A stretch of DNA of 64,000 nucleotides from Cryobacterium sp. N22 (GTDB taxonomy: Bacteria; Actinomycetota; Actinomycetes; Actinomycetales; Microbacteriaceae): contig NZ_PJJP01000037.1 of NCBI RefSeq assembly GCF_002929555.1, forward strand, positions 186,467 through 250,466. The letters run 5' to 3'. The notes below the pieces were generated by a model that saw only the letters and a list, made by a program, of their open reading frames with translations, was not told the DNA's origin and did not search any database. The translations under genes and the position numbers were made by a program. Position 1 is the stretch's first letter. Each line of letters starts with the position of its first letter. Below, piece by piece: positions 16,371 through 24,114 of the stretch.

Positions 16371-17288
16371 CTACGACGCGTGACCCTCGGGTGGGACGGC
16401 GCGCACGGCGCCGAGCTTCACCGGGTTCATGATGAAGAAGATCCGGTTGATGCCGCGGCTGCTGACCCCGATGGCGCCGACCAGGAACGGCTCGCCATCC
16501 ATCCGGAGTACGAAGGCGTCGGAACCGTTGACTGCGGCGACGTTCAGCTCGACCTGCACCTGCAGCTTCTGGACTGTACCGAGGAGGAACCGTGCCACGT
16601 TGTCGCGACCTTCGACGGGCCGGCGGGCGGCGGTCACGTTGCCGCCACCATCCGAGTACAGGACGATGTCGTCGGCGAGCAGAGCCTGTAGGCCCTCCAG
16701 GTCGCCGGCTTGAGCGGCGGCGAGAAAGGAGCGGAGCAGACGGTTCTTCTGCGCGACGGTCACGCGGTTGTCGCTGTGCTCCTTGAGGTGCAGGCGGGCA
16801 CGCCGGGCGAGTTGGCGGGCGTTGGCCTCCGTGGTCTCGACGACCGCGGCGATATCACCGAAGGTGTAGCCGAAGGCCTCGTGGAGCAGATAGACGGCAC
16901 GCTCCTGAGGTGTCAGTCGTTCCATCAGCAGCAGGAGCCCGACCTCGAGGGCCTCGGTGTTTTCCGCACCCAGTTCCGGATCGGCGGCGGTGAAGACCGG
17001 TTCCGGTAGCCACGGGCCGATGTAGGTCTCCCGGCGCAGGCGCGACGACGTCGCCACGTTGATTGTGAGGCGGGTCGTCATCGTCGTCAAAAATGCACCA
17101 TGGCTGCGGATGCCCGATCGGTCGGTCGTCTGCCACTTGACCCAGGCGTCCTGCACGACATCCTCTGCCTCCACTGCGCTGCCGAGCATGCGGTAGGCGA
17201 TACCGAAGAGCCGTGGGCGCATCGACTCGAACCCTGCCGCCAGCTCATCCAGTTCTGCTGCGGTCACCTCGCGACTGGGAACTCCCAT
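16371..17288 (-). CDS. ECF41-type sigma factor with SnoaL-like C-terminal domain (copy 1)
   Basis: About 305 residues. Sigma region 2 reads FGIAYRMLGSAVEAEDVVQD, the ECF41 linker is YIGPWLPEPV, and region 4 covers LTPQERAVYLLHEAFGY and the following helix-turn-helix. After residue 190 comes a SnoaL-like extension with YSDGGGNVTAARRPVEGRD and FFIMNPVKLG, matching the ECF41 DGGGK and NPDKL landmarks with a V for D change. In ECF41 the fused domain replaces an anti-sigma factor and controls activity. The ATG at 17288 with AGGA 5 bases upstream is chosen over ATG 17294 and TTG 17333. It is divergent from the FAD oxidoreductase gene at 17452, which has an ECF41-type promoter. Confidence 0.93.
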   Translation of the reverse strand: MGVPSREVTAAELDELAAGFESMRPRLFGIAYRMLGSAVEAEDVVQDAWVKWQTTDRSGIRSHGAFLTTMTTRLTINVATSSRLRRETYIGPWLPEPVFTAADPELGAENTEALEVGLLLLMERLTPQERAVYLLHEAFGYTFGDIAAVVETTEANARQLARRARLHLKEHSDNRVTVAQKNRLLRSFLAAAQAGDLEGLQALLADDIVLYSDGGGNVTAARRPVEGRDNVARFLLGTVQKLQVQVELNVAAVNGSDAFVLRMDGEPFLVGAIGVSSRGINRIFFIMNPVKLGAVRAVPPEGHAS

Positions 17289-17386
17289 CGGCATCCTCTG
17301 GTCGGCGTTGCTCGCTGTACGATCCGGCTTCAACTTACCGTCGCCCGGTGCGGATGGTGATTCGTGACAGGCCGCGCGCGAGGTGG

Positions 17387-17415
17387 TGTCACGTTTCGGC
17401 GGAGGCGGCGGTCAT
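17387..17415 (+). promoter_or_regulatory. ECF41-type promoter for the NDH-2-like gene
   Basis: TGTCACG at 17387-17393, a 16-base spacer, and GGTCATT from 17410. Spacing and both elements match three other sites in this module (19488, 19522 and 23518). The group ECF41 is known to read a TGTCACA/CGTC-type promoter. It drives the gene at 17452, which has AAGGAG 7 bases before its ATG. Confidence 0.75.
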
Positions 17416-17451
17416 TACTTATGAACCGCCCATTTTCGATAAGGAGACCGC

Positions 17452-18657
17452 ATGAGCACACGTTCCGAGCACAGGGTTGTCGTCATCGGGGCCGGCTATG
17501 CCGGAATCCTCGCGGCAAACCGGGTGCAAGCGTCCTTGACGGCTGACGAAAGCCGACGCGTGCGCGTCGTGATGGTGAATCCCACCTCCGATTTCATCGA
17601 GCGTGTGCGCCTGCACGAGGTGGCCGCGGGGGTGCGCACGCACGCCGCGATTCCTTTGGGCGACATGCTGCATGACCGCATCGAGATCGTCCTGGGCACG
17701 GTGCTGCGGATCGACGCTCCTGCCCGTGTGCTCTCCGTCGCGACACGCAGCGGGATCACGGAGGAGCCCTATGACACTCTCGTCTACGCCGTGGGGAGCA
17801 CGGCCGCGCTTGGAGCGCCCGGTGCGGACGAGTTCGCGCACCTGCTCAGCAACGCTGACGGGGCGGAGACCGCGCGCCGTGCGCTCGCCACCGGCCCGGA
17901 CGAGCAGCGCATCGTGGTGGTCGGGGGCGGGGCGACGGGTGTGGAGGCCGCCGCTGAGTTCGCGGAACAGCACCCGGGCGCGTCGGTCACCCTGGTGTCG
18001 AGAGGCGCCGTGCTCGCGCATCTCCCCGCGGCGTCCCGCAAGTCCGTCCTCCGTTCGCTGAAGAAGCTCGGCGTCAATGTGATGGAGGGCAGCGGCGCCG
18101 GCCGGGTCCTGGCCGATGCCGTTGAGCTCCTGGACGGCGCGCTTCTTCCCAGCGACGTCACCGTCTGGACCGCCTCTTTCGCCGTCCCCGATCTCGCCCG
18201 TCGCAGCGGGCTCGACGTCGACCCGATCGGCCGGTTGCTGGTCGACGAGGAACTCCGTGCGCTTGGCTACCCTGAAATCTTCGGTGCCGGCGACGCCGTG
18301 CATCCGCCCTCCTCCGTCGGATCGCACCTGCGGATGGGCTGTGCAATCGCCATGCCCCTCGGCGGCCACGCGGCGGATAACGTTCTGGCCGTCTTGCGCG
18401 GAGGAGGCCTGACGAAGCTCGACGTCGGTTTCAGCGCCCAGTGCATCAGCATCGGCCGCAAGAGCGGGATCATCCAGCTCCTCACAAAGGCGGACCGGCC
18501 GCTGGCGATCCGCATCACCGGTCGGCCCGGGGCGATGGTGAAGGAATTCGTCTGCACATTCCTCGCGACCGGTTCGCCCCGACGAGAGCGGATCCGGCCC
18601 GGATCGTTGATACTGGCCTCCGGCCCGAAGAGGATGCCTGTCGACCTCAGGAATTAG
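17452..18657 (+). CDS. NDH-2-like FAD-dependent NAD(P)H dehydrogenase/oxidoreductase
   Basis: A 401-residue pyridine nucleotide-disulfide oxidoreductase of the NDH-2-like type. The FAD-binding Rossmann motif VVVIGAGYAGILAANRVQ is at residues 8-25, the second (NAD) motif is VVVGGGATGVEAAAEFAEQH near residue 157, and the second FAD motif is EIFGAGDAVH near residue 280. Such enzymes move electrons from NAD(P)H to quinones or other acceptors at the membrane. Upstream lies a TGTCACG-N16-GGTCAT promoter, so it is a probable ECF41 target. It converges with the SDR at 18680. Confidence 0.9.
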   Translation: MSTRSEHRVVVIGAGYAGILAANRVQASLTADESRRVRVVMVNPTSDFIERVRLHEVAAGVRTHAAIPLGDMLHDRIEIVLGTVLRIDAPARVLSVATRSGITEEPYDTLVYAVGSTAALGAPGADEFAHLLSNADGAETARRALATGPDEQRIVVVGGGATGVEAAAEFAEQHPGASVTLVSRGAVLAHLPAASRKSVLRSLKKLGVNVMEGSGAGRVLADAVELLDGALLPSDVTVWTASFAVPDLARRSGLDVDPIGRLLVDEELRALGYPEIFGAGDAVHPPSSVGSHLRMGCAIAMPLGGHAADNVLAVLRGGGLTKLDVGFSAQCISIGRKSGIIQLLTKADRPLAIRITGRPGAMVKEFVCTFLATGSPRRERIRPGSLILASGPKRMPVDLRN

Positions 18658-18679
18658 TCCCGTGCGTTCAGACCTTCCA

Positions 18680-19441
18680 TCAGTCGGCTTCGGTCTGCTG
18701 CTGCAGCCAATCCTCGAAGCGGGTGGGAAAGCGGAACGCATCCGCGCCGGGCAGGAGTTCGTCGGCCGTCAAGGTCGTCCCGAAATAGCGTGCGAGCGGA
18801 TCGGCCACCACCTGGCGCGGGTCGTTGCGCGAGTGGAGCTCAAGCTGCACCAGGTCGGTCATCGCGAAGACCTCTGGACCCGCGAACTCCGTGGTCGACA
18901 TCGTCGGCTCACCCAACGTGGTCTGCACGACGGCGGCGGCCACGTCGTTGCCGGCGATCGGCTGCACGGAAGCCCGAGCAAGGTGGATGAGGTTGTCCCG
19001 GGCGGCGGCATCGCCGATGCTGCGCACGAATTCGAAGAACTGGGTGGCGTGCACCAGGGAATAGGGCAGGGCGGACCGGCGGATCAGGGTCTCTTGAGCG
19101 TCCTTGGCGAAGAAATATCCCCGCTCGGTCTGGGCGAGGCGATCGGTGCCGACCACGGACAGGGCGACGTGGTGGCGCACCCCGGCCGCCTTCCCGAAGG
19201 TGAGCAGATTGAGGGTGGACGCGTAGAAGAAGTCGAGGGCGCCGGCTTGGTCGGTGTACGACGAATTCGAGAGATCGACGACGGTTTCGGCGCCGTCGAG
19301 CGCCTCGTCCAAACCCTCAGCGGTGTACGAGTTGACCCCGGTGCCCCGCGCAGCGACCACCACATCGTGCCCGGCACGGCGGAGCCGGTCTACAACCTTG
19401 GTGCCGATCAGGCCGGTGCCTCCGACGACGACGATTCTCAT
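18680..19441 (-). CDS. NAD(P)-binding SDR/NmrA-like oxidoreductase (paralogue A)
   Basis: A 253-residue atypical short-chain dehydrogenase with the dinucleotide-binding MRIVVVGGTGLIGTKVVDRL at the N-terminus. It shares HHVALSVVGTDRL near residue 90, LVHATQFFEFVRSIGDAA near residue 130 and a C-terminal FPTRFEDWLQQQ with the protein at 22702-23466, so the two are clear paralogues. The catalytic YxxxK is not canonical, as in NmrA-like members. The substrate is unknown; ECF41 loci commonly contain such epimerase-like genes. Its upstream region has an ECF41-type promoter divergent from that of the second sigma gene. Confidence 0.88.
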   Translation of the reverse strand: MRIVVVGGTGLIGTKVVDRLRRAGHDVVVAARGTGVNSYTAEGLDEALDGAETVVDLSNSSYTDQAGALDFFYASTLNLLTFGKAAGVRHHVALSVVGTDRLAQTERGYFFAKDAQETLIRRSALPYSLVHATQFFEFVRSIGDAAARDNLIHLARASVQPIAGNDVAAAVVQTTLGEPTMSTTEFAGPEVFAMTDLVQLELHSRNDPRQVVADPLARYFGTTLTADELLPGADAFRFPTRFEDWLQQQTEAD

Positions 19442-19487
19442 GGTGTTCCTCTCCTGGCGCGCGGCTCGGTGAGCAGCGTCTGATCAG

Positions 19488-19518
19488 CTAGGACCGATTT
19501 CGACGCGATTTTGTGACA
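19488..19518 (-). promoter_or_regulatory. ECF41-type promoter for SDR A (leftward)
   Basis: On the minus strand: TGTCACA (19518-19512), 16 bases, GGTCCTAG (19495-19488). The -35 box is part of the 17-bp palindrome TGTGACACCGTGTCACA (19512-19528) shared with the rightward promoter. The SDR start codon is 47 bases downstream. Confidence 0.75.
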
Positions 19519-19521
19519 CCG

Positions 19522-19550
19522 TGTCACAGATCGGGGTTCTGTGCGGTCAT
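19522..19550 (+). promoter_or_regulatory. ECF41-type promoter for the tandem sigma genes (rightward)
   Basis: TGTCACA at 19522-19528, a 16-base spacer, and GGTCATAG from 19545. It is the closest match to the ECF41 consensus in the window and precedes an ECF41 gene, indicating positive autoregulation. Its -35 box is the mirror image of the leftward one. Confidence 0.78.
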
Positions 19551-19600
19551 AGTTCTCAATGGATCGTCTTTTGACTATGAACCCCGCAGGAGGATTTTTT

Positions 19601-19621
19601 ATGGTGGAGATCGATGAGTGA
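19601..19621 (+). CDS. Six-codon leader ORF overlapping the sigma start (candidate)
   Basis: AGGAGG at 19588-19593, the best ribosome-binding site here, is 7 bases before ATG 19601, which reads MVEIDE and stops with TGA at 19619-19621. The sigma gene starts inside it at ATG 19614 in another frame, using GGTGGAG within the leader as its own site. This layout suits translational coupling. Whether the peptide is made is not known. Confidence 0.45.
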   Translation: MVEIDE

Positions 19622-20492
19622 CGGCCTGGATGACGCGGTGGCCGTGTTCTCCGCCGTCAGACGGCGCCTCTTCGGCATTGCCTACCGGATGCTCGGCACC
19701 GCGTCGGAAGCCGAGGACATCGTGCAGGATGTCTGGGTGCGGTGGCAGACCTGTGACCGCAGCGCGGTGCGTGACCCGGCCGCGTTTCTCGCCACGGCGG
19801 CCACCCGCCTGTCGATCAATGTCCTCCAGTCCGCCCACTCCCGCCGCGAGACCTACATCGGTCCCTGGCTGCCCGAGCCGGTCAATACCAGCGACGACCC
19901 GGCGCTCGGTGCCGAGCGCGGTGAAGCCCTCGGGTTCGCGATGCTCCTGCTGCTTGAAAAACTGACCCCCACCGAACGCGCCGCCTACGTCCTGCGCGAG
20001 GCCTTCGACTATCCCTACGAGCAGATCGCCCAAATCGTGCAGCTCAAGGAACCCGCCACCCGTCAGCTCGTCAGCCGGGCTCGCAAGAAGCTGGCCACCG
20101 AGCGCCGGGCGCCCGTGGTGTCCGCCGAACAACGCCGTCTGCTCGCCGCGTTCCTGCAGGCCGCCCAGAGCGGCGATGTCACCGCGCTTGAAGATCTTTT
20201 CGCCTCCGATGTCGTCAGTTACTCCGACGGAAACGGCGTCAAACTGGCCGCCCGCATCCCCGTGAACGGCCGCAGCAGGGTGGCGACGTTCGTCGCCGCG
20301 TTCTCCGGCCACTTCTGGGCCGGCAAGACCATCGACTGGGTCGAGCTGAACGGTCAGCACGCCGTGACTTTGACCGAGGCCCGAACGGTGACCACCGCGC
20401 TCACGCTGACCGTCGGCGACGACGGCATCCAGCAGCTGATGTGGATGATGAATCCCGACAAGCTCGGTCGCGTGTCCGCTGGGGTGGATTGA
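19614..20492 (+). CDS. ECF41-type sigma factor with SnoaL-like C-terminal domain (copy 2)
   Basis: A 292-residue sigma factor. Region 2 is FGIAYRMLGTASEAEDIVQD, the linker is YIGPWLPEPVN, and region 4 covers LTPTERAAYVLREAFDYPYE plus the helix-turn-helix. The SnoaL-like extension carries YSDGNGVKLAARIPVNGRSR (DGGGK degenerated to DGNGV) and MWMMNPDKLG with an intact NPDKL motif. An ECF41-type promoter lies 64 bases upstream and a six-codon leader overlaps the start. The third sigma gene overlaps its 3' end by four bases, so the two proteins are made from one transcript. Confidence 0.93.
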   Translation: MSDGLDDAVAVFSAVRRRLFGIAYRMLGTASEAEDIVQDVWVRWQTCDRSAVRDPAAFLATAATRLSINVLQSAHSRRETYIGPWLPEPVNTSDDPALGAERGEALGFAMLLLLEKLTPTERAAYVLREAFDYPYEQIAQIVQLKEPATRQLVSRARKKLATERRAPVVSAEQRRLLAAFLQAAQSGDVTALEDLFASDVVSYSDGNGVKLAARIPVNGRSRVATFVAAFSGHFWAGKTIDWVELNGQHAVTLTEARTVTTALTLTVGDDGIQQLMWMMNPDKLGRVSAGVD

Positions 20493-21388
20493 CATCCGGC
20501 GAGCCGGCCTCCGACGCGCTGTCGGCCGAGCGCCCACGACTCCTGGACATCGCCCTGCGCATCCTGGGATCCATCGCGGAGGCCGACCGGGCAGTGGAGC
20601 GCACGTTCACCCTGTGGCGCGAGGCGCCGGCGGCCGAGCGGGACGCGGGCGTCTCGCTGCGGGATCAGTTGACGGAAATCCTCGCGCGCACCTGTGTCGA
20701 CGCCCTACGGCAGGCCAGGCTCGACCGCGGCCAGTACGTCGGCGACTGGCTGCCGGAACCCCTTCCCCACCTGGGTGCGCCCCGCACGCCAGGCGGCACG
20801 GATCCGGTCGACCGGATCTCCCTGGACGAGTCCCTGAACATGCTGTTGCTCGTGGTGCTGGAATCGCTCACGCCTGAGGCACGCGTGGCCTTCATCCTGC
20901 ACGACGTGTTCGGTGTGCCCTTCGGCGGGATCGCCGACGTCGTGGGGCGCTCTCCCGAGGCCACCCGGGAGCTGGCTCGCTCCGCCCGCCGGGAGATTCA
21001 CCATCGCCGGGAACACGACGCGCCCGGGGAGCGTCATCGAGCGCTCGTGCTCGATTTCCTCGCCGGCTGCGCGGCTCAGGACGAAGCCCAGGTGCGGTCG
21101 AGACTGCACCCCGACATCGCCGTGATCATCGACGGCGGGGGCAAGGTGAGCGCGGCGCCCTCCCCGACGCGGGGGGTGGAACAGGCCGCCCGGCTGCTCA
21201 TTCGCGTGATTTCGGGGGTCCCGGCCCTGGCGGTCACCGAGCAATCGGTCAACGGCCAGGCCGGGCTGGTCTTCCGCCGGGACCAGAGAGTGGTGGGCGT
21301 GATGAGTGTGAGCGTGCGGACCGGGACGATTCGGGACGTCTGGATCGTCCTCAACCCCGACAAGCTCCGGCACTGGAACGCTGACTGA
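20489..21388 (+). CDS. Divergent ECF41-like sigma factor (copy 3)
   Basis: About 299 residues from the TTG at 20489, whose TTGA overlaps the stop of the preceding sigma gene; an ATG at 20441 in the same frame would overlap by 52 bases. It keeps the ECF41 landmarks YVGDWLPEPLPH, VIIDGGGKVSAAPSPTRG and WIVLNPDKLRHW. Sigma region 2 is altered: LDIALRILGSIAEADRAVER instead of the usual FGIAYRMLG...EAEDIVQD, with loss of the conserved aromatic and acidic residues used for core and -10 recognition. Region 4 (LTPEARVAFILHDVFGVPFG) is better kept. It may be a sigma factor with altered specificity or a regulator of copy 2; I cannot decide. Confidence 0.85.
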   Translation: MTSGEPASDALSAERPRLLDIALRILGSIAEADRAVERTFTLWREAPAAERDAGVSLRDQLTEILARTCVDALRQARLDRGQYVGDWLPEPLPHLGAPRTPGGTDPVDRISLDESLNMLLLVVLESLTPEARVAFILHDVFGVPFGGIADVVGRSPEATRELARSARREIHHRREHDAPGERHRALVLDFLAGCAAQDEAQVRSRLHPDIAVIIDGGGKVSAAPSPTRGVEQAARLLIRVISGVPALAVTEQSVNGQAGLVFRRDQRVVGVMSVSVRTGTIRDVWIVLNPDKLRHWNAD

Positions 21389-21437
21389 CCCGAAAACCGG
21401 CTCGGCCCCGTCGTGCGCAGGTCAGGCGGCGGGCGGT

Positions 21438-22676
21438 CTACCCGTGGAAGGCGACGAGCTCCTCCGCGACCACGACGGCGCCGGACCGGATGAAGGCCTC
21501 GATGTCGGGCATCCGGTCCCAGCTGTTCACCGCCATTCCGGCCCGTACCCGGCCGCCGGAGGTCCAGAACGCCACGAATTCGCGCGTCTCCAGCGATCCG
21601 CTGACCACGAGGTCGTCGTAGTCGCCTGGCCCGGCGACGAACCCGGTGTACTCCATGCCGATGTCGTACTGGTCGCTGTAGAAATAGGGCAGGTGGTCGT
21701 AGGCAGCCGTCGCGCCGAGCATGCCGGCGCCGGCGTGCGGGCCGGTTCTCAGGGCGGTGTCCCAGTGTTCGACCCGGAGCGGACGGTCGTAGACGGGGGA
21801 GGGGATGCTCGCCACGTCGCCGGCCGCAAAGACGTCGGGCGCGCTGGTGGCGAGGCTGCCGTTCACGGCGATGCCACCGCCGAGTTCCCGGGCGCGCAGG
21901 GCGATTCCCGCTGATGCAGCGAGCCCGGTATTCGGTGCGGCACCCACCGCGATCAGGACCACATCGGCCGGCAGCACGCGGCCATCCTGCACGGTGACCC
22001 CGGTGACCCTGCCCGCCAGGCCGTCGATCGACGCGACCTCCACCTGTTCCAGGAGGGTGACGCCGTGCTCGCGGTGGGCCTCGGCGTAGAACGCGCCCAT
22101 CGTGTCGCCGAGAACCTTCCCGAGCGGCTGCCGGCCGTGGCCGAGCACCGTGACATCAAGCCCGAAGCTCTGCGCCGAGGCGGCGACCTCAAGGCCGATC
22201 CAGCCGTCGCCGACCACCACGAGCTGCCCTCCGCCCGCGGTCCGGGCCGCGTCGAGAGTGGCCTGCAGCAGGTCGGAACTCTCCACTGTGCGCAGGGCGA
22301 GGACCCCGAGTAAGTCCTCACCCGGGATGCCGGCGGAGCGCGGCGAGGATCCGGTCGCCAGGAGCAGCCGGGAGTAGAGCTGCTGCCGGCCGTCGGCGAG
22401 CGTGAGGCGGTGATCCGCCACGTTCAGTCCAACCGCGGTCGTCGCCGTGCGCACCTCGACGCCGTGTTCGGCGTACCAGGACGGGGCGAGGGTGAACAGG
22501 CTCGTGCGGTCGACCTCCCGACGCAGGTAGTCCTTGGACAGTGGCGGGCGCTCGTAAGGGTGGTGCGGTTCGGAGCCGAACACCACGAGGTCACCGTCGT
22601 GGCCCGCCTCCCGGATGGCCCGGACCGCGCCGGCTGTGGCGAGCCCGCCGCCGACGATGACGAGTGGTTCGGTCAT
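21438..22676 (-). CDS. Ferredoxin reductase-type FAD-dependent oxidoreductase
   Basis: A 412-residue flavoprotein of the ferredoxin/rubredoxin reductase group. It has the N-terminal FAD motif VIVGGGLATAGAVRAIREAG, the family segment PYERPPLSKDYLR near residue 43, the NAD motif VVVGDGWIGLEVAASAQSFG near residue 157, and DVFAAGDVAS near residue 280. The C-terminal reductase domain contains HLPYFYSDQYDIGMEYTGF-like sequence. It would pass electrons from NAD(P)H to a ferredoxin or monooxygenase partner, none of which is adjacent. It lies 25 bases downstream of SDR B on the same strand and should share its ECF41-type promoter. Confidence 0.9.
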   Translation of the reverse strand: MTEPLVIVGGGLATAGAVRAIREAGHDGDLVVFGSEPHHPYERPPLSKDYLRREVDRTSLFTLAPSWYAEHGVEVRTATTAVGLNVADHRLTLADGRQQLYSRLLLATGSSPRSAGIPGEDLLGVLALRTVESSDLLQATLDAARTAGGGQLVVVGDGWIGLEVAASAQSFGLDVTVLGHGRQPLGKVLGDTMGAFYAEAHREHGVTLLEQVEVASIDGLAGRVTGVTVQDGRVLPADVVLIAVGAAPNTGLAASAGIALRARELGGGIAVNGSLATSAPDVFAAGDVASIPSPVYDRPLRVEHWDTALRTGPHAGAGMLGATAAYDHLPYFYSDQYDIGMEYTGFVAGPGDYDDLVVSGSLETREFVAFWTSGGRVRAGMAVNSWDRMPDIEAFIRSGAVVVAEELVAFHG

Positions 22677-22701
22677 GGTGTCTCTTCTCTCGTTGGAGGG
22701 T

Positions 22702-23466
22702 CTACCTCGCGGGGGTGGACGCGGCGGTGGTCAGCCACTCGTCGAACCGGGTGTCGAAGATGACGGCGCCGGTGCCAGGCAACAGCATCCGCTCGCCCAG
22801 CTTCTGGCCGAAGTACGTGGATTCGGGGTCGGTCACCACCGTGCGTGGGTCGCCGGCGAAGGCCAGGCCGGTGCGGATGAGGTCGTCGAGGCCGAGCTCT
22901 TCGGGGCCCGCCACTTCGATGGTGCCGTTCAACGGTTTGCCCGCCGTTGCGCGCGCGACCGCGGTCGCCACGTCTTCCGCCGCCATCGGCTGGATCAGCG
23001 CGTGGGACAGGCGCACCTCGTCGCCGACCGTCGCGGTCGCGGCAATGCTCTTCACAAACTCGAAGAACTGAGTGGCGTGAATGATCGAGTAGGGGATACC
23101 GCTGGATTTGATCAGTTTCTCCTGGGCGACCTTGGCGCGCTGGTAGCCGCTGTCGGTCATCAGTTCGGCGCCCACCACGGAAAGGGCGACGTAGTGGCCG
23201 ACGCCGGCCTCTTTGGCGTAGCTGATGATGTTGGTGGTCGCGGTGGTGAAGAAGGTCATCACGTCGTCGTCGGCGAACGAGGGTGAGTTCGACACGTCGA
23301 GCACCGTGTCGGCGCCGGCGAGGACTTCGGCCAGGCCCTCACCGGTGAGGGTGTTCACTCCGGAGTTCGGCGAGGCCGGGATCGCTTCGTGGCCGTGGGC
23401 GGTGAGCTTGGCGACGACCTTGGAGCCGATGAGGCCGGTGCCTCCGATGACGACGATCTTGGACAT
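22702..23466 (-). CDS. NAD(P)-binding SDR/NmrA-like oxidoreductase (paralogue B)
   Basis: A 254-residue paralogue of the SDR at 18680. Shared elements are KIVVIGGTGLIGSKVVAKL at the start, GHYVALSVVGAELM, the IIHATQFFEFVKSIAA stretch and the C-terminal FDTRFDEWL. The two proteins look roughly half identical by eye. It heads a two-gene unit with the ferredoxin reductase-like gene. Its minus-strand upstream region has GGTCACA-N16-GGTCATAG, matching the other ECF41-type promoters. Confidence 0.88.
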   Translation of the reverse strand: MSKIVVIGGTGLIGSKVVAKLTAHGHEAIPASPNSGVNTLTGEGLAEVLAGADTVLDVSNSPSFADDDVMTFFTTATTNIISYAKEAGVGHYVALSVVGAELMTDSGYQRAKVAQEKLIKSSGIPYSIIHATQFFEFVKSIAATATVGDEVRLSHALIQPMAAEDVATAVARATAGKPLNGTIEVAGPEELGLDDLIRTGLAFAGDPRTVVTDPESTYFGQKLGERMLLPGTGAVIFDTRFDEWLTTAASTPAR

Positions 23467-23517
23467 GAGCGAAACCTTCCGTCGGTGCGGCGCGGGTGTT
23501 CCGCGGCCGTCACAGAG

Positions 23518-23548
23518 CTATGACCGGATAGGCCGCCCAGGTGTGACC
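23518..23548 (-). promoter_or_regulatory. ECF41-type promoter for the SDR B - FAD reductase unit
   Basis: On the minus strand: GGTCACA (23548-23542), a 16-base spacer, and GGTCATAG (23525-23518), 52 bases before the start of SDR B. The -10 is identical to that of the sigma gene promoter at 19545. The first base of the -35 differs from the consensus. Confidence 0.72.
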
Positions 23549-23736: not shown

Positions 23737-24114
23737 TCAGCTCTGCGTGCTGCCGCGGAACGCGCGGATGATCTGCGCGAGTGCCAGCCCCACCGCAGTG
23801 ACCACGGGAACGGCGACCACCATCAGGGCGATGCGGTTGGGCCGGAATTCCAGGCCGTCCGGCCCGCCGACATAGGCGCCGATCGGCACCGCGTAGCCAC
23901 CGCCACCGCCGCCCCGGCCCTCGCCGACGCCCATGCCCGCCGGACCCAGGCCACCGTCGGGCATCTCGCTGGAGCCCTCGCCGCCGCCGAAGCCGAAGCC
24001 GACGAGCGCGACGGGGATCAGGTCGTGCCCGCCCAACGTGCTCTTCTCGCCGTACGCCAACTTTGCGCCCCAGGAGGGCACCGATTCCGCCAATTTCTCG
24101 ATGAGGTTCGCCAT
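23737..24114 (-). CDS. GerW-family (YtfJ-like) sporulation-type protein
   Basis: A 125-residue protein resembling GerW/YtfJ. The N-terminal helix MANLIEKLAESVPSWGAKLA is followed by GEKSTLGGHDLIPVALVGFG, a glycine-rich linker (about residues 42-75), and a C-terminal hydrophobic segment near residues 95-115. In Bacillus the family takes part in spore germination, but actinobacteria of this type do not make endospores, so the role here is unknown. The region upstream (24115-24409) holds an AT-rich repeat island. Confidence 0.8.
   Translation of the reverse strand: MANLIEKLAESVPSWGAKLAYGEKSTLGGHDLIPVALVGFGFGGGEGSSEMPDGGLGPAGMGVGEGRGGGGGGYAVPIGAYVGGPDGLEFRPNRIALMVVAVPVVTAVGLALAQIIRAFRGSTQS

Follow-up and report, generated by a model that had tools for sequence, protein, structure and literature searches.

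Two neighbouring ECF41 modules with a common promoter type in Cryobacterium sp. N22, and a degenerate sigma-like gene predicted to modulate its ECF41 neighbour

Within a 64,000-nucleotide stretch of the genome of Cryobacterium sp. N22 (NZ_PJJP01000037.1, positions 186,467 to 250,466; hereafter the window), a cluster of ECF41-like sigma factor genes and redox enzyme genes lies between window positions 16371 and 23548. At its left end, the ECF41 sigma factor gene sigA (16371..17333, minus strand, with start candidates at TTG 17333 or ATG 17294; TIGR02957, 331 bits) encodes sigma2, a YIGPWLPEP linker, sigma4 and a SnoaL_2 domain, and diverges from the gene of an NDH-2/NirB-like FAD oxidoreductase (Pyr_redox_2; 17452..18657, plus strand; Pfam PF07992, E 2.7e-33). 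SDR A, which is NAD(P)H-binding and NmrA/epimerase-like (18680..19441, minus strand; PF13460, E 9.2e-8; PF01370, E 5.4e-6), is in turn divergent from a second ECF41 gene with a SnoaL domain, sigB (19614..20492, plus strand; TIGR02957, 337 bits). Behind sigB lies sigC (20489..21388, plus strand), which we describe as a degenerate, ECF41-derived pseudo-sigma gene with an NPDKLxxW-type SnoaL domain, on the strength of its 215 bits, its altered sigma2 and its clade placement. The right end is occupied by SDR B, likewise NAD(P)H-binding and NmrA/epimerase-like (22702..23466, minus strand; PF13460, E 4.2e-9; PF05368, E 2.9e-7), and by FdR, which begins 25 bases after SDR B and encodes a ferredoxin-NAD reductase-like flavoenzyme (Pyr_redox_2 and Reductase_C; 21438..22676, minus strand; PF07992, E 1.1e-55; PF14759, E 1.8e-9). 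The Pfam matches bear out the two SDR and two flavoenzyme genes that a first-pass annotation of this DNA had placed beside the sigma genes.

The three top TIGR02957 matches of the genome are sigB, sigA and sigC (337, 331 and 215 bits), the next one scoring 87. Judged from their sequences, sigA and sigB qualify as full members of ECF41. Both exceed the TIGR02957 cut-off and contain sigma2, sigma4 and the C-terminal SnoaL-like extension by Pfam and NCBIfam, the SnoaL_2 match of sigB, at 20.8, lying under Pfam's cut-off of 27. Their linker and extension motifs read YIGPWLPEPV, DGNGVK and NPDKL in sigB, and YIGPWLPEPV, DGGGN and NPVKL in sigA. Measured on 86 conserved columns from 111 ECF41 proteins, a reference rich in sigB-like proteins, sigB keeps 26/26 columns in sigma2, 20/20 in the linker, 20/20 in sigma4 and 19/20 in the SnoaL domain, and sigA keeps 24/26, 19/20, 17/20 and 20/20, respectively. 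The Pyr_redox_2 and NmrA/epimerase matches next to them are the neighbour classes published for ECF41, whose promoter, TGTCACA-n16-CGTC, lies upstream of carboxymuconolactone decarboxylase, oxidoreductase or epimerase (COE) genes and of ECF41 genes, with Ecf41Bli and Ecf41Rsp as examples having COE targets (Wecke et al., 2012; PMC3426412, cited here and below from excerpts of the paper).

Four sites of the form [TG]GTCAC[AG]-N16-GGTC[AC]T, two on each strand, are the only exact matches to this motif in the window. They would serve as the ECF41-type promoters of the NDH-2-like gene (TGTCACG-N16-GGTCAT, 17387..17415, plus strand), SDR A (TGTCACA-N16-GGTCCT, 19490..19518, minus strand), sigB-sigC (TGTCACA-N16-GGTCAT, 19522..19550, plus strand) and SDR B-FdR (GGTCACA-N16-GGTCAT, 23520..23548, minus strand), and their 5' ends lie 65-92 bases ahead of the same-strand start codons at 17452, 19441, 19614 and 23466. 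The first-pass annotation, which had reported these sites with their 16-base spacing and the genes they precede, was exact on both counts. In 300 simulations with a first-order Markov model based on the window, exact matches averaged 0.023 per 64 kb and never exceeded 1, and the same half-sites at any other spacer from 10 to 22 had no match in the window. Only the exact form is informative, because the two-mismatch version is not enriched (14 found, 12.8 expected). A scan of the whole genome (4.06 Mb, 39 contigs), which had been proposed along with the motif, returned six exact copies against none for the reversed control pattern; four are those of the cluster and the other two lie inside open reading frames, so that the motif is nearly confined to the cluster. 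The relaxed pattern TGTCACR-N16-KGTCM has four genomic matches, three in the cluster and one at C17:268870 (L151:1501-1528), and one match in the control. We did not count the outlying copy as an extra regulon member, because it precedes an unrelated open frame and abuts a AACCGGTT palindrome.

The sites agree with the published ECF41 promoter in the -35 element and the spacer, and differ in the first base of the -10 element, which is G instead of C (TGTCACA-N16-GGTC against TGTCACA-n16-CGTC; PMC3426412). We hold the assignment of all four as putative ECF41 promoters of the published type to be right. The divergent -35 elements of SDR A and sigB stand back to back with a 3-base gap and make up a perfect 17-base inverted repeat, TGTGACA-CCG-TGTCACA (19512..19528), read directly from the sequence. 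The two promoters could hardly be bound simultaneously and would therefore be expected to compete. A candidate autoregulatory site of sigA, the minus-strand TGTCACG at 17369, was rejected, as GGGC and not GGTC stands at the right distance and one of five genus relatives retains the half-site. A 6-codon upstream frame, ATGGTGGAGATCGATGAGTGA, at 19601-19621 has a strong AGGAGG site and ends over the sigB start codon; translation of sigB may be coupled to this leader peptide.

The sites recur in relatives. We examined the best 80 of 459 relatives' loci found with sigB, a sample skewed to Microbacteriaceae, with the pattern [TG]GTCAC[AG]-N15..17-[CGT]GTC[AC], and paired a site with a gene if it lay at most 260 bases upstream of the gene start. 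The pattern matched 82 times, against 9 times in the reversed control, and gave 48 site-gene pairs, upstream of 32/87 SDR, 4/9 NDH-like, 12/88 sigma and 0/1 FdR starts. The first -10 base in these pairs is G in 34, T in 14 and C in none (GGTC or TGTC), and the spacer is 16 in 48/48, with 15-17 permitted and the second element itself within the search pattern. The sigB promoter has counterparts in L020 (CGTCACA-N16-GGTC) and L021 (TGTCACG-N16-TGTC), the two closest relatives also carrying a full-length sigC. Within the genus, the NDH promoter TGTCACG-N16-GGTCA is in place at all five examined loci with the sigA/NDH pair, four of which have diverged in the sequence around it.

We read the cluster as two neighbouring ECF41 modules with a common promoter type, a reading that is weighed below jointly with its mechanism. 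Module 1 consists of sigA and the divergent NDH-2-like oxidoreductase gene, and module 2 of sigB-sigC together with SDR A, divergent from them, and the operon of SDR B and FdR. The sigA/NDH pair is present in at least five genomes of the same genus. In G056 and G044, it stands between the same flanks as in the window, a DNA-alkylation-like gene and the gene at 23737, and SDR A, sigB, sigC, FdR and SDR B had no match in that stretch at an E limit of 1e-15; in G044 the gap holds different frames, which on inspection by eye look like a regulator and an SDR. A further genome, G005, has sigA and NDH only, within the stretch fetched. The segment from SDR A to SDR B (18680-23466) is a variable spot beside sigA/NDH, absent there in two same-genus genomes. 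Because the genes of module 2 were not found at that spot in these relatives, module 2 may be a recent arrival, or it may have been lost or moved elsewhere. The description of the cluster as a single, self-contained regulon had to be given up, since the two modules differ in distribution. With sigC as the only query, 16 of 57 genus genomes gave a match at E 1e-15 or better. Beyond the window genome, these are ECF41-type genes of lower identity (30-42%), including a full-length relative in G031 (36% to sigC) and a solo relative in G052 (42%). At L101:1486-3659, the full-length G031 gene, for which sigC is the best window match, is without the NPxKLxxW ending and adjoins an NDH homologue.

sigC is a gene of another kind. 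Its start is more likely TTG 20489 than GTG 20441, as inferred from the register in relatives, and this TTG overlaps the sigB stop by 4 bases. The protein stays under the cut-offs of TIGR02957 (215.2 vs 323.25) and PRK09636 (231.8 vs 271) and has no Pfam Sigma70_r2 match, and no anti-sigma family is among its listed Pfam and NCBIfam matches. On plasmids, the proteins most similar to sigC frequently bear the annotation SigJ. Of the conserved columns, sigC keeps 11/26, 13/20, 11/20 and 14/20 in sigma2, linker, sigma4 and SnoaL domain, respectively. In view of the bias of the reference set towards sigB-like proteins, a comparison with its own type is fairer. We call W-type those SnoaL domains that end in NPxKLxxW, the motif by which they were recognised, and ten intact sigma factors carry such a domain (L125, L126, L127, L128, L129, L130, L132, L134, L135 and L146). 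They keep 15-19 columns in sigma2, 14-15 in the linker, 12-14 in sigma4 and 14-18 in the SnoaL domain; by this comparison, the special loss of sigC is in sigma2. D35 and Q38, which we take to sit on the polymerase-binding face of region 2.2, are invariant in a 28-row ECF41 alignment (A3) and unchanged in 10/10 intact W-type sigmas, and they are replaced by R/E in sigC, R/D in L020 and L/A in L021. sigC retains WLPEP, DGGGK and NPDKL, the first of which is absent in L020. Low AlphaFold confidence in the sigC linker was considered as a sign of lost contacts and dismissed, as the sigB control is equally low there. With its degenerate sigma2 and its place in another lineage, sigC is probably not a working sigma factor. 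The earlier count of three fused ECF41 sigma factors thus stands in so far as three ECF41-like genes lie within 5 kb and sigA and sigB are ECF41, and fails for sigC.

In 42 of the 80 loci, a sigC-type SnoaL gene directly follows the sigB-type gene (39 by domain position, with a domain start from 60 bases before to 340 after the sigB stop, plus the full-length genes of L020, L021 and L051). Most of these partners are solo SnoaL domains of roughly 115 to 155 residues; partial pseudo-sigmas also occur, with little or no sigma2 in L051 and L059 and without sigma4 on the plus strand of L067. Ten further loci (L056, L058, L062, L063, L066, L082, L089, L093, L096 and L099) have a W-type gene elsewhere in the stretch. 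The SnoaL profile separates most W-type from ordinary ECF41 domains, albeit imperfectly: five of the 39 adjacent solos (L044, L047, L064, L073 and L087) fall short of the 88.6 reached by the highest-scoring ordinary ECF41 domain and were taken as solos by position and short frame. Alignment A1, with matches in at least 100 of 396 genomes, has ordinary ECF41 SnoaL domains among them and is not a partner count. The 4-base start/stop overlap register was seen in 24 of the 39 loci as well as in the window, L020 and L021; the position scan gave no start codon for L064, L073 and L095, although in L095 a GTG lies 13 bases upstream of the end of the stop.

The relationship of these domains was examined in a quick tree of 114 SnoaL domains, for which the alignment is short relative to the number of rows and the ordinary ECF41 domains of the 80 loci are represented by every fifth one. 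A W clade (Shimodaira-Hasegawa-like approximate likelihood ratio test, SH-aLRT, 99) unites every one of the 46 solos and 11 pseudo-sigmas with nine of the ten intact W-type sigmas; L146 has the W ending yet stands outside. sigC, which ends in NPDKLRHW, lies inside this clade and groups with L020 and L021 (SH-aLRT 92, not starred). A branch of solos and pseudo-sigmas (SH-aLRT 93, not starred) leaves out two of the 11 pseudo-sigmas, L051 and L059. The W lineage spans a range with intact sigma factors at one end, solo SnoaL proteins at the other and pseudo-sigmas in between. For seven close solo pairs, the ratio of nonsynonymous to synonymous change (dN/dS) was 0.08-0.37, a weaker constraint than on the sigB core (0.02 to 0.11); the range overlaps with that of the sigB SnoaL domain (0.09 to 0.64). 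The constraint on sigC itself is weakly shown, because its synonymous change relative to L020 and L021 is near saturation (proportion of synonymous differences 0.55-0.85). Thirty W-type domains from several actinobacterial genera have D44, N84, G88, W114, P119, K121, L122 and W125 in common, the invariance of NPxKLxxW being partly by choice, as this motif served for their recognition.

Searches with sigC or with the SnoaL alignment as the query gave five W-type genes (L155, L156, L157, L161 and L162), each of them no more than about 3 kb from an ECF41-type gene. In L155, this neighbour consists of a sigma core and has no SnoaL domain. At L155:4725-7276, the W-type pseudo-sigma gene directly precedes this ECF41-like core, with TGTCACA-N16-GGTC between the two and an SDR behind, and the core, too, has an altered region 2.2; the arrangement looks like a split system. 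The other three of the eight neighbourhood stretches, L158, L159 and L160, are without the W ending and were excluded from the count of five. A second ECF41 gene was not seen within the 10 kb of L158 and L160. Split or truncated ECF41-like frames were noted at L159:4893-5879 and L160:4705-5178 in the phylum sample.

We propose that SigB, and probably SigA, would be restrained by its own SnoaL domain until a signal releases it. The released sigma factors would then bind the TGTCACA and GGTC elements and turn on the redox enzymes, and SigB would drive its own operon as well (autoregulation). SigC would probably be made from the same mRNA as SigB by coupled translation. It has lost sigma2 residues that working sigma factors need, retains the sigma4 fold and the SnoaL domain with the NPDKL, DGGG and NG motifs, and would most likely modulate SigB in trans through the SnoaL domain as a partner, brake or co-sensor, giving rise to a feedback loop. 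We put the probability of this reading as a whole, with the two-module cluster, the SigB-driven redox genes and SigC as a predicted trans modulator of SigB, at roughly 0.58. A wider reading would be that a large actinobacterial branch of ECF41 has a second component, derived from ECF41 by stepwise loss of sigma domains, translated with the sigma factor and presenting the NPDKL/SnoaL surface in trans, with sigC of the window as an intermediate on the path from sigma factor to regulator. We regard this generalisation as tentative and place it somewhat below even odds.

Several observations weigh against the main reading. Under the pattern used, only 12 of the 88 starts of sigma genes in the sample have an upstream site, and 38 of the 80 loci are without a sigC-type gene directly downstream, the partner therefore being dispensable. 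The 4-base overlap readily arises by chance, because a TGA stop yields a start codon whenever the base before it is A, G or T, and most cases come from one genus, Microbacterium. In three close relatives, sigma4 is the best-kept part of sigC (67-75% identity, vs 44-48% for the SnoaL domain), so that a DNA- or polymerase-related role of the sigC sigma4 is not excluded. When the differences in sigC were set by hand against those in sigB of the same three genomes, they amounted to about 2.0x in sigma2, 4.4x in the linker, 2.6x in sigma4 and 1.6x in the SnoaL domain; the SnoaL domain is the least changed part on this scale, yet sigma2 is not the most changed. TGTCAC-N16-type sites were absent within 1.5 kb flanks of the ten intact W-type sigma loci, the promoter specificity of which is probably different; sigC therefore need not share the promoters of sigB. 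The asparagine of NPDKL is lost in 25 of 43 sigB-type rows with a partner (including the second ECF41 of L036) and in 6 of 38 without. Compensation by the partner was considered as the reason and rejected, since the loss is a clade trait and about 0 of 3 independent pairs speak for compensation.

SigC and the solos could instead be co-regulated enzymes or ligand-binding proteins of the NTF2/ketosteroid-isomerase fold that act on the SDR substrate, and not regulators. NTF2-like folds are often enzymes, there are structural matches to ketosteroid isomerases, and the pseudo-sigma gene of L156 lies directly behind an SDR gene. However, conservation falls on the positions that mark the regulatory extension of ECF41 (NPxKL, DGG and NG), and it is a sigma gene that the partner follows in 42/80 loci; we consider the enzyme explanation unlikely. 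A role for SigC as a third functional ECF41 sigma factor that recognises promoters of its own seems distinctly unlikely, given the missing Pfam sigma2, the scores under both SigJ-type cut-offs and the D35 to R and Q38 to E replacements, as well as relatives that have lost the linker motif (L020), most of sigma2 (L051) or sigma4 (L067, plus strand), or, as in the solos, have no sigma parts at all. A functionless, decaying duplicate would account for the degenerate sigma2, the patchy presence and the stages of breakdown among relatives, but is more improbable again in view of the intact open reading frame of sigC, the purifying selection on the solos and the residues common to 30 members from several actinobacterial genera. 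Finally, the notion that a dimeric repressor or activator uses the four sites as operators, for which the 17-base inverted repeat and a second GTGACA half-site at 17364-17369 could be cited, is highly improbable and was rejected because the second element stands at exactly 16 bases in 4/4 sites, in front of the NDH gene in five relatives from the genus and in the 48 pairs of the wider sample, and the 17364 half-site is kept in 1/5 genus relatives and absent from 4/5.

SigC as a modulator of SigB would differ from known arrangements. PhyR of alphaproteobacteria carries a receiver domain, and its sigma-like domain titrates the anti-sigma factor NepR; sigC has a SnoaL domain instead. In SigJ of Mycobacterium tuberculosis (structure 5xe7), a single protein combines the two sigma domains, whereas sigC has a degenerate sigma2 and stands behind another ECF41 gene. 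In the ECF56 pair SigG1-RsfG of Streptomyces tsukubaensis, RsfG is without a conserved Pfam domain as described in the excerpted text (PMC7730460), and this description sets it apart from sigC and the solos, which have a SnoaL domain and are of ECF41 descent. The window resembles published ECF41 systems (PMC3426412) in the order sigma2-WLPEP-sigma4-C-terminal extension, in having no classical anti-sigma gene next door, in its oxidoreductase and NmrA/epimerase neighbours and in its divergent pairs, as ECF/COE pairs are often both preceded by the motif. Unlike them, it has GGTC as the -10 element (GGTC or TGTC in relatives) and combines two sigma factors, four sites and a degenerate sigma-like gene after sigB in one cluster. 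The first-pass annotation, which knew of no described case with this architecture, holds only for the detail, whereas an ECF41 gene beside Pyr_redox/NmrA genes with TGTCACA-n16-CGTC is a published hallmark. The sites and the type of regulon were correctly recognised but are known in kind; the sigC lineage is the new element. No description of a sigC-type partner lineage turned up in the literature searches made or in the excerpts of PMC3426412, PMC7730460, PMC8999054, PMC8103513, PMC7406223, PMC11256431 and PMC9205884; its priority is not established, the ECF reclassification and the 2019 ECF41/ECF42 papers lying outside the literature covered.

ECF41 is a widespread sigma factor group with a built-in regulatory domain. 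In the excerpts of PMC3426412 and PMC7730460, both its inducing signal and the action of its regulatory domain are treated as unsettled. A natural, separately encoded SnoaL partner, if true, would allow a direct test of how the regulatory domain acts in trans. It would also provide a worked example of a sigma factor becoming the regulator of its relative, and ECF41 systems would then not always be one-protein systems.

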